From: Bacteroidota bacterium
GTDB taxonomy: Bacteria; Bacteroidota; Bacteroidia; UKL13-3
Direction of reading: 5' to 3'
Length of the DNA stretch: 64,000 nt
Assembly (NCBI GenBank): GCA_013298895.1
Contig: JAAFJM010000003.1
Location: 1-64,000 of the forward strand
The notes beneath the pieces are model-generated. The model was not told where the DNA came from. It made no database searches and saw only the letters and a list, made by a program, of their open reading frames with translations. Each line of letters opens with the position of its first letter. Position 1 is the first letter of the stretch. This document shows, one piece after another, positions 8,236-60,682 of this stretch. A program made the position numbers and the translations under genes.

Positions 8236-9012
8236 GTGAAAAATATTACCTTAATATCAGATTATGGAAATGCGAGCCATTATGCTGCTGCTTTAAAGGG
8301 TAATTTATTCAAAACAGTTCCTAATATTAGAATTATTGATATTTCGCATACAATTGAAAAGTTCAATAAATTGCAATCTGCATTTATTCTAAATGCTATT
8401 TATAAAAATTTTGAAGAGGGAACAATTCATCTTATTTGTGTTGATACAAACTTGTTTATGTATGAACAAATAATAATTGCAAAGCACCAAAATCAATATT
8501 TCATTGCATTGGATAATGGGATTCTGAACCTAATGTTTGAAGGTGAGCCAGATGAAATTTGGACATTAAATAGTAACCTTTGTAACTCCAATGATTCGTT
8601 TATTGAAAATGAAGCATTTGTGCTAATAGCAAAACACTTAACATCAAACTCACCCATTAGTTTAATAGCTACAAATGGTAAATTAAATTATAAGTTAAGT
8701 CATCCTAATATAGAAATTCACGATCAAGGCATAGTTGCATTTGTAGCATTTGTAGATGGTTTTGGTAATGCTATTTTGAATGTTGATAAAATACTTTTCG
8801 AGAAAATAAGAGGAGGACGATTATTTAAGATTTATTATGCAAGAAAAGAGTTTTTTGATAAAATTAACAAGCATTATAAAGAGGTAGAAAAAGGAGAGGA
8901 GGCAATATTGTTTAATTCAAGCGGGTATTTGGAAATAGCTACCAATGAAGGAAATGCCTCACAGTTACTAGGATTGAGGGTAGGAAGTAAGATAATGATA
9001 GAATTTCAATAA
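8236..9012 (+). CDS. SAM hydroxide adenosyltransferase / DUF62 homologue, divergent
   Basis: Related to the fluorinase/chlorinase/SAM-hydroxide adenosyltransferase superfamily; classical members hydrolyse SAM to adenosine and methionine. 258 residues, GTG start (no in-frame ATG fits). Recognisable family blocks are LISDYGNASHYAAALKG (Asp9), IDISHTI, ICVDTNLF (Asp70), ALDNGILN and VDGFGNAILNV. The family's catalytic Arg, expected a few residues after the VDPGVG block, is not visible: the segment reads VDTNLFMYEQ. The active site is therefore altered, and activity on SAM is doubtful. The next gene begins 6 bp downstream, so the two form an operon. Confidence 0.82.
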   Translation: MKNITLISDYGNASHYAAALKGNLFKTVPNIRIIDISHTIEKFNKLQSAFILNAIYKNFEEGTIHLICVDTNLFMYEQIIIAKHQNQYFIALDNGILNLMFEGEPDEIWTLNSNLCNSNDSFIENEAFVLIAKHLTSNSPISLIATNGKLNYKLSHPNIEIHDQGIVAFVAFVDGFGNAILNVDKILFEKIRGGRLFKIYYARKEFFDKINKHYKEVEKGEEAILFNSSGYLEIATNEGNASQLLGLRVGSKIMIEFQ

Positions 9013-52771: not shown

Positions 52772-54547
52772 TTATAAATTATCAGATTTTCTTTCTAGTT
52801 CAGCTTCTTTTTCTTCCAATTTGCGTTCAATTTCTGTCTGTTTCTCTTCTATTTTACGTTCTATTTCCTCTTGTTTTCTCTCAAACCTACTTTGGTTACT
52901 ATCCTCGTTTTTATAGCTGTTTATGTTATTTATTTCAAACCAAAATTGGGTCGGTGTTTCTCTTTTTCCTATAAATCCAAATACTTTTTGAGCAGTTTCA
53001 TTAGCATAAAATTTTACATTTTCTTTTAAATAAAACTTAACTTTTACAGTTTGAAATTTAAACTTATAAAGTTTAGGAATAAAATAATGACTTGGGAAAA
53101 TTATTGAATCACCAACTAATTTATATTGCAAAACTATTTGAGCAAGTTTGGCTTTTGTTTTACTAACCATTACACCTTTAAATTGCTTATTAATGGTATA
53201 TGTGGATTTGTTTTCCAGCGTGTTATCAATTTCATAATTTATTGGTACAAAAATCCCACTATCGCACAATTGAATTTTAAATTCATTTTTACTAAAAAGA
53301 TCTATTTGTTTTCCTGTACTCAATTCATTAATTATTACTATCAATGAATCATTTTGTGGCAAATTTTCATTCTCTATATCAGTAATATCAACAGCTTGAA
53401 AATAGTTAGCGCCCATATTTAAACCAACATAGATTAATAAGCCAATTCCCAAAAAAAACAAAAATACCAATCCAGAACCAGCATATCTAAATTGTATATT
53501 AGCCTTAAATGCATATTTAGCTATAACTGCCAATAAAAATAAAACTGGAGCAAAAATAATTAAAAGAACTCCAGTAAGTAAAATACTTAAATTTTCATCA
53601 AATGGAACGGTATTCGATAAAAAATCAAATAAATTAATATTAGTAAAAAAACTGAACATGCCAGCTGTAAAGAAGAACGAAATAACCAAAATACCTAATA
53701 AAAAAATGGCTATCAAGGCAATAATAAATTTAAAAAAAGACCTGATACCATTTAATTGTGTGTCATTTTGAACTACATAATTTTGATTATTATTTAACTT
53801 TGTTTTTTGGAATTGATTATTGGCTTCTGGAATGGTAATCCAAGCAATGATATAAATTAAAAAAGAAGTTCCCCAAAAAAACAATCCCGCAAAAAAGGCC
53901 AATCTTACCACCCAAATTTCAATTCCAAAATGCAATGCCAATCCACTACAAACCCCTCCTATCGCTTTAGTTTCCTGGTTTCTATAAAGTTTGTGAACGT
54001 TATTATTTTCATTTTTAATAATCTTATCAGCATCTTCTCCAGTTGCTTTAGGTATCACAATCCATAACACAATATAAGCCAATACACCTGTTCCAAAAAA
54101 GAAAAAAGCGAACACAAATGCAATTCTAATAAAACTAGTATCCACGCTTAAATAATTGGCAATTCCACTACATACACCACCCAAACTTTGGTTAAATGGA
54201 TTTCTTCTTAATTTAGGTTTTGATGAATTTATATTAGTAAAATCTGATTGATTAGGTTCATGATTCGAATAACTTTTTTCAGATTTATGGCTGTTTGTCA
54301 ATTCTTCAACAGTTCCAAGTGTTTTTATTACTTCATTGACATGATTTGCTTCAACCATTTCAGCTTGTGTAGCTGCCAATTGTAAAGTTAATAATTCAGC
54401 TATTCTAGCTTCTATATCGAACAAAATATCGGGTTCTGATTTAAAACTGTTTTTTAATGCAGAAACGTAATTATTCAATTGATGGTAAGCATCATTATTT
54501 AATGTAAAGGTTGTTTTGTTTAGATTTATTTTGATAGATGTTATCAT
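52772..54547 (-). CDS. PspC-domain membrane protein with two PspC units
   Basis: A 591-residue membrane protein. The first ~90 residues form a cytoplasmic helical domain. Two PspC domains follow: GGVCSGIANYLSVDTSFIRI (about 125-170) and GGVCSGLALHFGIEIWVVRL (about 198-250), each with a membrane helix. Several more helices and a soluble C-terminal domain follow. The last ~45 residues are a charged coiled coil with repeated IERK.EEK units. Related to envelope-stress/phage-shock proteins. It begins 10 bp after the PadR-type regulator, which probably controls it. Confidence 0.9.
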   Translation of the reverse strand: MITSIKINLNKTTFTLNNDAYHQLNNYVSALKNSFKSEPDILFDIEARIAELLTLQLAATQAEMVEANHVNEVIKTLGTVEELTNSHKSEKSYSNHEPNQSDFTNINSSKPKLRRNPFNQSLGGVCSGIANYLSVDTSFIRIAFVFAFFFFGTGVLAYIVLWIVIPKATGEDADKIIKNENNNVHKLYRNQETKAIGGVCSGLALHFGIEIWVVRLAFFAGLFFWGTSFLIYIIAWITIPEANNQFQKTKLNNNQNYVVQNDTQLNGIRSFFKFIIALIAIFLLGILVISFFFTAGMFSFFTNINLFDFLSNTVPFDENLSILLTGVLLIIFAPVLFLLAVIAKYAFKANIQFRYAGSGLVFLFFLGIGLLIYVGLNMGANYFQAVDITDIENENLPQNDSLIVIINELSTGKQIDLFSKNEFKIQLCDSGIFVPINYEIDNTLENKSTYTINKQFKGVMVSKTKAKLAQIVLQYKLVGDSIIFPSHYFIPKLYKFKFQTVKVKFYLKENVKFYANETAQKVFGFIGKRETPTQFWFEINNINSYKNEDSNQSRFERKQEEIERKIEEKQTEIERKLEEKEAELERKSDNL

Positions 54548-54557
54548 AATTGTTCTT

Positions 54558-54884
54558 TTAATTTTTTGTGATTGTATTTACTGAGTTTACCAAATCAATC
54601 CATGATTGATTGATTTCCTTTAAAAACTGTTGTCCATTTTTAGTTAATTGATAATATTTCCTTGGTGGCCCACTATTACTTTCAAACCAATTATAATTTA
54701 ATAAATCTTCATTTTTTAACCTTGTTAGTAATGGGTATAATGTCCCTTCAACCACAATTAAATTTGCTTTTTTTAGTTCCACAATAATATCACTAGCATA
54801 TGCTTCGCCCCTACTTATAATGGTAAGAATACAAAGTTCGAGTATTCCTTTTTTCATTTGTGCTTTACTATTTTCTATATCCAT
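54558..54884 (-). CDS. PadR family transcriptional regulator
   Basis: A 108-residue winged-helix regulator. The ATG at 54884 is preferred to an in-frame ATG at 54932, because the family begins close to MKKGILELCILTIIS. The recognition part reads VVEGTLYPLLTRLKNEDLL, and the wing SNSGPPRKYYQLTKNGQQFL; both are classic PadR. First gene of the PadR-PspC operon, 10 bp before the PspC gene; such pairs are common and likely respond to envelope stress. Confidence 0.93.
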   Translation of the reverse strand: MDIENSKAQMKKGILELCILTIISRGEAYASDIIVELKKANLIVVEGTLYPLLTRLKNEDLLNYNWFESNSGPPRKYYQLTKNGQQFLKEINQSWIDLVNSVNTITKN

Positions 54885-55111
54885 TTGAAAAAAATTACCG
54901 GACAAACATAATAATATTTTAGTACTATGCAATACATAGTATCATTTACTTTTACTTTCTAAGCAATAAAAATACGGCTAGAAAAAAATTATGCTTCAAT
55001 GAGCATTAAATGCTTAGTCATCAATTAATTTTTTGATTGATTAATTTTTGAAATAAATTTTATGATGGTTTGTTAGAAAATATTATTTTGCCGAAAATAA
55101 ATTTATATAAT

Positions 55112-55963
55112 ATGATATTGATTGCAGATAGTGGTTCTACAAAAACCGATTGGGTAATAATTAATAAAGATGGTACTGGTCGAAAGACTTTCCATACAAT
55201 TGGGTATAACCCTTATTTTATTGACAGTGAAGCAATTTATTACTCACTGAGTGAAAATTTATTAAAGGATTTAGATGGAACGTCTATTTCAGAAGTTTAT
55301 TTTTATGGAGCAGGTTGCTCTACACCTGAAAAAAAAGATATTGTTAGAAAAGCATTAACAAGAAGCTTTCCTTATGTACCAGATATTTTTGTAGGCCATG
55401 ATTTACTAGCTTCTGCTCGTGCACTGTTAGGTAAAGAAAAAGGTTTTGCAGCTATTTTAGGCACCGGCACCAATTCATGTTTATATGACGGATTTGATGT
55501 TTTCCATAATATTGATTCTTTGGGCTATTTAATGGGTGACGAAGGAAGCGGAAGTTATATTGGTAAAAAAATATTACGCGACTTTATGAGAGGTAATCTC
55601 CAGCCTGAATTACAAGCTAGATTTAAAGAGCGCTTTCAAATTGAAGATAATGAACAAATTTTCACTACTTTATACCAAACTCAATTTCCCAATAGATATT
55701 TAGCTAGTTTTTGCAAATTTGCAGATGAGTATGTTTCTCACCCCTATATAAAAAATAAAGTACGTGATGGATTTAGAGATTTCTTTAAAAATCTAGTGTC
55801 GAAATATCCAAATTATAAAGAATACACTTTTAATTGTGTAGGATCTGTAGGATTTGTATTTAAAGAAATTTTAGAAGAAGTTGCTTTAAGTTATGATATG
55901 AAAATTGGAAAAGTAATTAAGTCTCCAATGGACGATTTGATTCAATTCCATTTAAATTCATAA
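55112..55963 (+). CDS. BadF/BadG-type ATPase, N-acetylglucosamine kinase-like
   Basis: A 283-residue sugar-kinase-fold protein. The phosphate-1 motif DSGSTKTDWVI is at the N-terminus, followed by VGHDLLASARALLG, the phosphate-2 motif ILGTGTNSCLYDG, and GYLMGDEGSGSYIGK. This fits the N-acetylglucosamine kinase/BadF family of cytoplasmic kinases that recycle amino sugars. Start at the ATG at 55112, not the TTG-type frame start at 55070. Monocistronic, with a strong terminator. Confidence 0.9.
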   Translation: MILIADSGSTKTDWVIINKDGTGRKTFHTIGYNPYFIDSEAIYYSLSENLLKDLDGTSISEVYFYGAGCSTPEKKDIVRKALTRSFPYVPDIFVGHDLLASARALLGKEKGFAAILGTGTNSCLYDGFDVFHNIDSLGYLMGDEGSGSYIGKKILRDFMRGNLQPELQARFKERFQIEDNEQIFTTLYQTQFPNRYLASFCKFADEYVSHPYIKNKVRDGFRDFFKNLVSKYPNYKEYTFNCVGSVGFVFKEILEEVALSYDMKIGKVIKSPMDDLIQFHLNS

Positions 55964-55983
55964 CTGAAAATTTTATTTATTTT

Positions 55984-56010
55984 AAAGCCGCTTTTTGCGG
56001 CTTTTTTTAT
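55984..56010 (+). terminator. terminator after the GlcNAc-kinase-like gene
   Basis: A perfect 8-bp stem (AAAGCCGC / GCGGCTTT) with a T5 loop, followed by a T run. Confidence 0.88.
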
Positions 56011-56195
56011 GCCTATCCACGTAAATATTTATTATAATCTACATTTAAAAACATTAATATTTCTAGCATTTACAATTGTATAACCTAAAAAATCCACCAA
56101 AAACAAGCTCAATTTTATGAATACAATATTCAATAAAACAGTATGTTATAGTAATAAATCTATACTAAAAAACACCCCAACGATATTAACGTATT
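56011..56195. other. gene-free AT-rich stretch upstream of the repressor operator
   Basis: Together with the terminator before it and the operator after it, this forms a 327-bp gap between genes. I see no coding or RNA feature in this part. Confidence 0.5.
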
Positions 56196-56269
56196 AATAC
56201 AAATGCAAACCATGTTGTTTACATTTGTATTTTATAAAAACATTTGTAAATTCGCAGCTTTACAAATGT
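56196..56269 (+). promoter_or_regulatory. operator array of four TACAAATG half-sites
   Basis: Four copies of TACAAATG or its complement lie at 56198, 56222, 56241 and 56261. They form two inverted pairs: AATACAAATG/CATTTGTATT (10 bp, 16-bp gap) and ACATTTGTAAA/TTTACAAATGT (11 bp, 8-bp gap). TACATTTG at 56220-56227 also fits the -7 promoter box. The array ends 21 bp before the repressor gene, so autoregulation is likely. Confidence 0.68.
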
Positions 56270-56290
56270 ATTATATAGCTGATTGTCAAT

Positions 56291-56749
56291 ATGGATGAAC
56301 TTAACAAACGTGTATGTGACGTGATGGAGCGTTTTTGTGGCTCTAAATCAATATTTGCAACTGAATTAGGTGTTGGTTTACCTGTAATTACCCATATTTC
56401 ATCTGGCCGAAATAAGCCTGGAGTAGATATTTTGCAAAAAATACTGCATGCCTACCCTACCATTGATGCCACTTGGCTAATGATAGGAAAAGGCGAAATG
56501 ATAAAGACCGAAAAACCTTCGTTAAATATTGATAATGAAATCAATAATATCAAAAATTTAGCTAATAAGTTTGAGCTTTTAAAGGAGAATACAGCCTCTG
56601 TTATTGGTTACCATAAGCTATTTATTGATGAATTAAGACACTTTACAGAACTAGATAGTATTTTACAAAAAACCCAATTCGGTATGAATGAAATTCAGCA
56701 AAAAATCGATGAGGAATTACTGAATTTAAAATATAAAGTTGAAAAATAG
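56291..56749 (+). CDS. helix-turn-helix regulator, phage-repressor-like
   Basis: A 152-residue DNA-binding protein. Residues about 1-65 form a Cro/CI-type helix-turn-helix (KSIFATELGVGLPVITHISS as the HTH core) followed by GRNKPGVDILQKILHAYPTIDATWLMIGKGEM (split here across residues 39-70), a layout common to Bacteroidota XRE regulators. The C-terminal half is a coiled-coil-like helix rich in Lys/Glu and may dimerise. No peptidase domain. The operator array just upstream suggests it represses itself. No phage genes are nearby. Confidence 0.85.
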   Translation: MDELNKRVCDVMERFCGSKSIFATELGVGLPVITHISSGRNKPGVDILQKILHAYPTIDATWLMIGKGEMIKTEKPSLNIDNEINNIKNLANKFELLKENTASVIGYHKLFIDELRHFTELDSILQKTQFGMNEIQQKIDEELLNLKYKVEK

Positions 56750-57012
56750 ATATATAATTACATATTTCTGATAAATAAACAGATAATTTTATTAAATAAC
56801 TAAAAATAACCATAACTAATTTTGATTTTTTCATAAAAAAATTTCAAGGATTAATAAAAAGAATACTACATTATAATAAAATTAATCTAAAAAATCTTCT
56901 TTTATTTCTAATGTCTGAGAATAGACTAAAAAAATCATAAAAACTTTTAAGTGAATATAAATGTTAATTGTATGTTTGCATATCAAACTTAATTAGACTA
57001 AATAAAAATAAG

Positions 57013-57588
57013 ATGACTGAAAATACTGAATATTGGAATATATATGCTGAACAAACTCCTAATCCTGAAACGATGAAGTTTGTTTTTAACAAAATGATTT
57101 TGCCCGATGAGGCCGAAGATTATCCAACCAAAGAAAAAGCAAATGCTTCTCCGCTAGCTAAAAGTTTATTTGAATTTAGCTTTATAAATGGTGTTTTTGT
57201 AATGAATAACTTTGTTACCATTACCCGCGCTCCTGAAACTGAATGGCACGAAATTACACCAATTGTCAAAGAATTTTTAAAAGCTTACGTAGAAGCTGGT
57301 GAGCCAATTAGCTATAAATCGGATAAATCAAATATACAAGGTGCTGATAATATTATAGTTGCGCAAATTTTAGATATTTTAGATACTTATATTAAACCAG
57401 CGGTTGAAAACGATGGCGGAATGATTTCTTTTAAATCGTTTAACGAAGAAAGTGGTTTGGTAACTGTTGAATTGAAAGGTTCTTGCAGCGGCTGCCCATC
57501 ATCAACGGTAACGCTAAAACGAGGAATTGAAGGATTATTAACCCGCATGGTTCCGCAGGTTAAAGAAGTGGTGGCCGAAAGCCTTTAA
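57013..57588 (+). CDS. NfuA-like iron-sulphur scaffold (NifU C-terminal domain)
   Basis: A 191-residue protein that carries and transfers Fe-S clusters. The N-terminal Nfu domain begins YAEQTPNPETMKFVFNK, and the C-terminal NifU domain contains the cluster-binding pair in LKGSCSGCPSSTVTLKRGIE. An insertion between the domains is short. Start at the ATG at 57013; the frame open from 56968 lacks similarity. Monocistronic; terminator at 57614-57648. Confidence 0.93.
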   Translation: MTENTEYWNIYAEQTPNPETMKFVFNKMILPDEAEDYPTKEKANASPLAKSLFEFSFINGVFVMNNFVTITRAPETEWHEITPIVKEFLKAYVEAGEPISYKSDKSNIQGADNIIVAQILDILDTYIKPAVENDGGMISFKSFNEESGLVTVELKGSCSGCPSSTVTLKRGIEGLLTRMVPQVKEVVAESL

Positions 57589-60164: not shown

Positions 60165-60455
60165 TTAATTGATTAAGTTTTTTCCGTGAATAATTCTAAC
60201 AACTCTAAGTTTAGTACCTTCTACCTTGTAAATAAATACATAACTATTTTCAAAAACTGCGCACCTGAAATTTGCTTTTAAAAACGCTGAATATCTGCAT
60301 AATGGATATTTGTTATGATACAAGGCTAAAGACAATGTAAACTCTTCCATTCTACTGACATAATTTAGCGCTGTTTCTGGGTATCCTTTTTCACTAATAT
60401 AATTTAAAATGTCAATTAAATCGTTTTCTGCTTTTCTTGAAATTTCAATTTTCAC
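60165..60455 (-). CDS. ParE/RelE-type toxin
   Basis: A 96-residue toxin. MKIEISRKAENDLIDILNYI and the late FRCAVFENSYVFIYKVEG, VRIIHGKN match the ParE/RelE fold, which inhibits gyrase or cleaves mRNA. Intact, unlike the RelE gene at 49740. Overlaps the antitoxin stop by 4 bp and is downstream of it. Confidence 0.86.
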   Translation of the reverse strand: MKIEISRKAENDLIDILNYISEKGYPETALNYVSRMEEFTLSLALYHNKYPLCRYSAFLKANFRCAVFENSYVFIYKVEGTKLRVVRIIHGKNLIN

Positions 60456-60682
60456 TTGCTAAACTTTAATTTCAAGTTGCTAAAAACTTCGTTTGCACTT
60501 AAATATTCATCATCTTCAGCCTCTGCTACAATGTTAATGTAATCTTGTTCTTCTAAAACGTTACCTGGTATTGAAAACATGGTTTCTTTCTCAACTTTCT
60601 TTACACCATTCAAACTTTCAATAGTATGCAATAGTTCGTCTAAGTTTGCATTTTCATCTAAGGTTACTATAAAACTTTTCAT
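60452..60682 (-). CDS. antitoxin of the ParE/RelE pair
   Basis: A 76-residue protein just upstream of the toxin (4-bp overlap). The N-terminal half (MKSFIVTLDENANLDELLHTI) and a charged C-terminal half (EDDEYLSANEVFSNLKLKF) resemble small antitoxins; I infer the role from position and size. It begins 18 bp after the kdnB stop, so it may be co-transcribed with kdnAB. Confidence 0.78.
   Translation of the reverse strand: MKSFIVTLDENANLDELLHTIESLNGVKKVEKETMFSIPGNVLEEQDYINIVAEAEDDEYLSANEVFSNLKLKFSK

Follow-up and report, generated by a model that had tools for sequence, protein, structure and literature searches.

A helically phased operator array upstream of a chromosomal HTH regulator gene in Bacteroidota, with features suggestive of negative autoregulation through promoter occlusion and a DNA loop

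An XRE-type helix–turn–helix (HTH) regulator gene in the window, the 64,000-nucleotide stretch of Bacteroidota DNA analysed here, is preceded by an operator array that is real and strongly conserved. It is of an ordinary kind, namely negative autoregulation with multiple operators, and is unusual in its conserved helical phasing and in the near absence of a regulon. We consider it probable that the gene, a 152-codon ORF at 56291–56749 on the + strand, encodes a chromosomal negative autoregulator that would act by promoter occlusion together with a DNA loop. The observations that support this are the conservation of the sites, their spacings, their 10.5-bp phasing, their overlap with a predicted promoter and the fact that the rest of the genome has almost no such arrays.

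The array upstream of the ORF consists of four TACAAATG words within 71 bp, at 56198–56205 (+), 56222–56229 (-), 56241–56248 (-) and 56261–56268 (+), with the inverted orientations that the original prediction had described. The window contains 13 such words in all, compared with a mean of 6.8 in 100 shuffles, two of which reach 13; four words within 75 bp occur once in the window and in none of 300 dinucleotide shuffles of it. A second group, at 8670–8754, lies inside coding sequence and was rejected as an array, and Rfam at gathering scores gave no matches over 54900–57100. The single word is fairly common genome-wide (375 occurrences vs 267 for the same word read backwards), an abundance to which the fit of TACATTTG to the flavobacterial -7 consensus TAnnTTTG may contribute. 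One might therefore argue that AT-rich DNA yields such words by chance, or that they are instances of this -7 box, the more so as some isolated copies elsewhere stand at likely promoters, and chance abundance had been named from the outset as a worry. Pairs of ACAWWTGT dyads separated by 8–18 bp are found at the array and at one other place in the genome (C37:4311), and the backwards pattern gives none. The shuffles and an 86-fold enrichment upstream of orthologues leave the chance or -7-copy explanation exceedingly improbable, and for the array it is already refuted.

Although the words were first taken to be half-sites, the orthologues show that each is a full dyad, ACA-NN-TGT, often perfectly palindromic. 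We regard each word as a complete palindromic operator because the variants ACAATTGT and ACATATGT occupy the same places in orthologues. In the window, all words but the first are parts of complete dyads, the predicted operators S2 (TACATTTGTA, 56220–56229), S3 (AACATTTGTA, 56239–56248) and S4 (TACAAATGTA, 56261–56270), and the first, predicted operator S1 (56198–56207), is the degenerate dyad TACAAATGCA with a score of 7.9. The S1 position holds a complete dyad, ACAAATGT or ACAATTGT, in five other members of the window's genus (loci L003–L007). The operator centres lie at -88, -66, -47 and -25 relative to the ATG, so that the centre spacings are 22, 19 and 22 bp, each close to two turns of the helix. 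A further predicted operator, D (TACAATTGTA, 56071–56080, core dyad 56072–56079), which had been overlooked originally, stands 127 bp upstream of S1, centre to centre. As read from the sequence, the array is thus one of four full operators, with TACAAATG as the dyad core ACA-NN-TGT, plus a distal fifth, and the operator consensus is WTTACA-WW-TGTAAW with A/T flanks. Further upstream, an intrinsic-terminator-like hairpin and T-run follows the preceding gene (55984–56009, + strand; one found vs 0.1 expected from shuffles), and would keep read-through out of the operator array.

We then examined the array across related genomes. Matches to the regulator at E <= 1e-6 were present in 50 of 97 of these, a figure that includes distant HTH relatives, and 34 orthologues had readable upstream DNA (L001, L003–L017 and L019–L036; L018, which has no start, and L002, a fragment of another HTH gene, were left out). 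The dyad ACANNTGT occurs 156 times in the 10,714 bp upstream of these genes, with at least two in each case, and 17 times in the remaining 100,691 bp of the loci, that is, 14.6 per kb in the 330 bp upstream vs 0.17 per kb in the rest. The earlier impression that an array of this size is unusual for a lone regulator does not hold up against this distribution, since every one of the 34 orthologues, and 15 of 20 distant relatives with this HTH type, has dyads in its upstream DNA.

A position weight matrix was built from the exact orthologue dyads, and sites were counted at a score of at least 6.5, with S1 assigned by hand. Proximal sites are in register at 0, 22–23, 41–43 and 63–64 bp, giving spacings of 22–23, 19–20 and 21–22 bp, in 24 of the 33 orthologues assessed; L025, with no more than 95 bp of upstream DNA, was left out. 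All 32 orthologues whose upstream sequence is long enough, which leaves out L028, have a distal site 96–139 bp from S1, weak in some cases. Its spacing is mainly 116–117 or 127 bp within the window's genus, and mainly 96, 107, 117, 127 or 138 bp outside it. Departures from this plan are of several kinds: the proximal array lacks one site in L008, L014, L021 and L028; its layout differs in L030 and L033; the fourth site is shifted in L017, L024 and L034, which also carry an extra distal site at 152–153 bp besides those in phase; L014 has an additional distal site at 74 bp; and off-phase sites occur at 105 bp in L004 and at 67 bp in L019. Extra sites between the proximal and distal clusters are found in several orthologues, e.g. 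L005, L008, L009, L020, L021 and L023; given these, the clusters could be read as one longer array in register instead of a simple loop.

The array overlaps a predicted sigma-A promoter on the + strand (56224–56254), TTTG (56224–56227)-N19-TAAATTCG (56247–56254), with a predicted transcription start at ~56259 and a predicted 5' UTR of ~32 nt. The consensus TAnnTTTG is placed at -12 to -5 in flavobacterial promoters by PMC9723704. In seven of the eight orthologues of the window's genus, the TTTG lies inside S2 and has a -7 box, TAAATTTG, TAAATTCG or one like them, 19–20 bp after it, so that the operators overlap the gene's own predicted promoter, as expected for a negative autoregulator. One half-site had been thought to double as a promoter box. 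The TTTG of the TACATTTG site fits a -33 element in these seven orthologues, and none of the eight has a TTG correctly placed for TACATTTG to serve as -7; the TACATTTG of the window is therefore probably part of the -33 element and of the operator rather than a -7 box. The same S2–TTTG layout recurs in L010, L035 and L036, whereas the promoter scan read TACATTTG as a -7 box in L017, L030 and L033. L009 has further full promoter matches, and a second candidate in the window, GTTG-N21-AACATTTG with S3 as -7, matches the -7 element equally well. By the same rules no promoter was found in L008, and none was clear in most members of genera g2 and g3. A sigma-70-type scan gave fewer matches than shuffles, and none over the operator array. 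Many orthologues also carry a short motif like TNATCAATA before the start codon (window ~56282–56290). It adjoins the ATG in members of the window's genus and sits several bases farther upstream elsewhere, and the operators do not account for it.

We propose that dimers of the 152-aa HTH protein would bind the four tandem full operators, two turns apart, over their own promoter. With S2 on the -33 element, S3, which abuts the predicted -7 box, against that box, S4 at the predicted start and S1 just upstream, RNA polymerase would be excluded. The same protein would bind the distal operator ~96–139 bp further upstream, in helical phase, and its long C-terminal helices would link the two clusters in a short DNA loop, tightening repression. 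Binding of the regulator to these sites, repression, the joining of dimers by the C-terminal helix and loop formation are steps that we infer. Autorepression by a lone regulator, as proposed originally, is favoured, in the same inferential sense, by the clustering of operators over a predicted promoter, but the half-site and -7 components of that proposal have not survived.

The phasing of the distal operator bears most directly on the loop. All exact-dyad distances between 71 and 240 bp peak at a period of 10.5 bp (R 0.50), a value reached by none of 5000 jitters; the test used 78 distinct genus–distance rows without hand assignment, each distal block being shifted randomly by -5 to +5 bp. 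The distal operator is thus in helical phase with the proximal cluster, as expected for a looping autorepressor, with a weaker result (p 0.079) in the most conservative control, in which equal distances were merged over all genera and weak sites were kept. Common ancestry explains part of the repetition of spacings, but hardly the changes of spacer length by whole turns. Contact between the clusters, in what would be a DNA loop, is in our view the best explanation of the phasing.

It could be argued instead that the distal operator serves only the promoter of a divergent gene, that there is no loop, and that the site is a relic in the window's genus. The upstream gene is divergent in 18 of the 32 loci where one is in view (a count that includes L118 and L095 from one assembly), and 17 of these 18 genes are SRPBCC-like by eye; the one divergent protein tested matched PF03364 at E 1.3e-4, just under the cut-off. 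An exact dyad lies 60–127 bp before the start codon of the SRPBCC-like gene in 14 of 16 examined loci, the array in some sister genera separates the regulator from the divergent SRPBCC gene, and within the window's genus other divergent ORFs lie upstream in L004–L007. However, no SRPBCC gene is present within 1500 bp upstream of the regulator in any of the eight loci of the window's genus (g1), and the distal site is retained in the absence of this neighbour in 8/8 g1 loci, 6/6 g2 loci, both g10 loci and the one g9 locus with enough sequence. SRPBCC relatives occur at other places in eight of ten genomes of the window's genus, those at L205 and L206 being more distant, and all eight lack an operator in the 350 bp upstream. 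Moreover, the helical phase holds in the 18 orthologues without an adjoining SRPBCC gene (R 0.71; 0 of 20,000 trials) and in the 14 without any divergent upstream gene, a set of 10–11 blocks that drops L004–L007 (R 0.72–0.73; one or three of 20,000 jitters, depending on the site cut-off). Because the distal operator is kept beside the regulator despite the absent SRPBCC gene, we favour a role in autorepression, and we consider it unlikely that the site serves the divergent promoter alone. The pattern of kept and missing operators suggests that an autoregulatory circuit can outlive its neighbour gene. In genus g2 (L090–L093), a gene for a 129-aa AHSA1/START-like protein (by eye) lies downstream of the regulator on the same strand; it may have replaced the divergent SRPBCC gene as partner.

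The other neighbours of the regulator are poorly kept. The next genes in the window are one without a Pfam match, presumably a sugar kinase, and a NifU-like gene. When 35 loci were compared with flanks of up to 4 kb, this pair was kept in L084 and in part in L085 and L086, and none of the window neighbours was kept in the 32 others; outside the window's genus, no tested window neighbour is kept at the regulator locus. In agreement with the original prediction, no recognised phage gene stands beside the regulator.

The regulator itself has a 434 Cro-like HTH at residues 3–65 and a single long C-terminal helix. Its Pfam match to HTH_3 (E 0.0022) is below the gathering cut-off. The AlphaFold model (pLDDT 88.6, pTM 0.45) has five N-terminal helices and a C-terminal part formed by one 71-residue helix, 81–151; with a pTM of 0.45, the model does not give the arrangement of HTH and helix relative to each other. 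DdrO is a peptidase-controlled damage-response repressor. Foldseek gave DdrO of Deinococcus (6jq1, 6rnx) as the best match, over 76–78 columns or about half of the regulator (E 7.9e-3), followed by 434 Cro (E 1.3e-2) and also P22 c2, all with E above 1e-3; the 434 Cro match has a TM-score of 0.79 by target length, in agreement with a five-helix XRE/HTH_3 domain. A PDB search with the orthologue profile matched the long helix best, to the plant MYC2 coiled coil (E 0.0013); HTH matches stayed above E 0.1, the exception being one designed protein (0.024). The alignment of 22 orthologues shows conservation of GRNKPG, which follows the third helix, and of Y107, H108 and E114 within the long helix.

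Autoregulatory operator arrays, with several dyads over a promoter, are familiar from the CI and Cro systems of lambda, 434 and P22. The present system resembles these in its small 434 Cro-fold HTH, in the several dyads ~two turns apart over the promoter and in a second, distant operator cluster that lies between divergent genes in sister genera. It differs from them in that the regulator has no S24 or other cleavage domain and no known lysis–lysogeny partner, is chromosomal, has the operator TTACA-NN-TGTAA and has a tree that follows host genera. No Pfam match to an S24 peptidase or an oligomerisation domain was found in the C-terminus, which is the one helix, the neighbours are non-phage and no close viral relative was found, none of which is as expected for a CI repressor. 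GalR also represses through short loops, and LacR and GalR operators lie some tens to 150 bp apart and are joined by a loop. The operators described here are similarly those of one protein, tens to 150 bp apart, with a loop that we would expect rather than observe, although the protein belongs to another family. For LacR, short-loop repression is treated in PMC1762422 and PMC2553838, the latter naming loops of ~150 bp.

A prophage repressor that the host has domesticated, with an array conferring immunity to phages that carry the same operator, might be suspected from the similarity to phage regulators in PHROG, which is weak (best E 2.5e-5), and from partial HTH matches in five phage records. 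Among these five records, however, only L208 has a dyad before the gene, and it is unannotated with a chromosomal-type protein; no dyad precedes the gene in L207 or L209, the two annotated phage repressors. None of 51 viral contigs with a triple dyad shows such a regulator beside it (a motif search on loci, some of them truncated), and no relative was found in IMG/VR, in a search reaching close relatives only. The gene tree follows the host genera with six changes, the least possible, although support for g3 is weak and g11 does not form a single branch. The phage searches made here found no temperate phage of these hosts with TACA-WW-TGTA operators, and we regard a prophage origin as very improbable. 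L208 (MT836585.1), filed as a bacteriophage, carries a GRNKPG regulator with TACANNTGTA dyads upstream; the entry bears an 'unverified' mark, and its DNA may be bacterial.

The dyad core raises the further possibility that a different repressor, of the BlaI/MecI/CopY type, acts at these sites and controls the regulator gene: TACANNTGTA is the classical CopR–CopY box, and is also claimed for BlaI and MecI (PMC7253601). The core is common to both systems, but the flanking preference differs, being A/T here as against the refined CopY operator RNYKACANNTGTMRNY (PMC7253601). Genome-wide, no PF03965 match exceeds the cut-off, one being sub-threshold at 21.3 vs 22.6 bits, and the regulator's own Pfam matches do not include this Penicillinase_R family. 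Furthermore, the boxes accompany the HTH gene in 34/34 orthologues, with unrelated neighbours outside the genus, and in 15/20 distant relatives. We therefore find control by such a repressor quite improbable, and retain the regulator itself as the protein that would bind the array.

A search for dyad pairs elsewhere had been suggested as a route to the regulon. It yielded the one other pair in the window's genome (G000), at C37:4311, which lies between inverted flanks and adjoins no such regulator, and no regulon emerged from the pairs. A similar pair occurs in G002, G003 and G004, inside a sigma-factor-like gene (labelled by eye) in G002 and G004. At least 49 of 64 family genomes contain a dyad pair, many of them at the regulator among the matches listed. 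Strict single dyads, TWACAWWTGTWA, are not in excess in G000 (21 vs 27 backwards). G001 has 14 of them, and the DNA around the sites was retrieved for all 21 in G000 (20 regions), for 20 of 21 in G003 and for 19 of 23 in G006; three shared non-coding or partly non-coding sites, aligned between genomes, look like ordinary -7 boxes or the palindrome of a TetR gene. The wider pattern WWACAWWTGTWW occurs 125 times vs 89 backwards, and given this, weak single targets beyond the regulator's own gene may exist. We conclude from these searches that the clear predicted target of the regulator is its own gene, which raises the puzzle of why a regulator with almost no visible regulon should keep so elaborate a control region. 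The start of the TetR-like gene (by eye) is immediately preceded by a perfect palindrome, CTAACAATTGTTAG, probably its own operator; three genomes share it without change (L141, G000:C1:88843-88854; L177; L190).

Similar dyads occur beyond the orthologues. Among 20 distant loci found by the GRNKPG pattern, many of which have other C-terminal domains, 15 have at least one [AT]ACANNTGT[AT] in the 200 bp upstream and nine have at least two, a density of 7.6 per kb vs 0.33 in the rest; L120, L127, L129, L132 and L136 have none there. A second, partly overlapping set of 13 loci, which leaves out the unmatched L047 and L048, gave at least one dyad in ten and at least two in nine (9.1 vs 0.24 per kb). 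The dyad code thus seems to belong to a chromosomal Bacteroidota HTH group rather than to phages. Tentatively, we suggest that Bacteroidota GRNKPG-type HTH regulators may share an ancient operator code, TTACA-NN-TGTAA, that forms here a nearly regulon-free, helix-phased and loop-forming array of about five to seven operators, with the regulator's own gene as main conserved target, no longer coupled in the window's genus to the SRPBCC gene that shares the divergent control region in sister genera. Among the literature matches listed, neither the regulator nor the operator was named for Bacteroidota. The code is testable for HTH regulators found in several Bacteroidota families, and the natural spacer series of 96, 107, 117, 127 and 138 bp makes short-loop repression testable outside E. 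coli and lambda.

Two other loci in the window may be mentioned. At 52772–54932, a PadR regulator gene (PF03551) lies directly before the gene of a PspC-domain membrane protein, in which two PspC stretches are combined with a toast-rack domain. At 60165–60682, a ParE-type toxin gene (PF05016, E 4.8e-11) directly follows a 76-codon ORF without a Pfam match that occupies the place of an antitoxin gene, and the two are likely to form a type II toxin–antitoxin pair.
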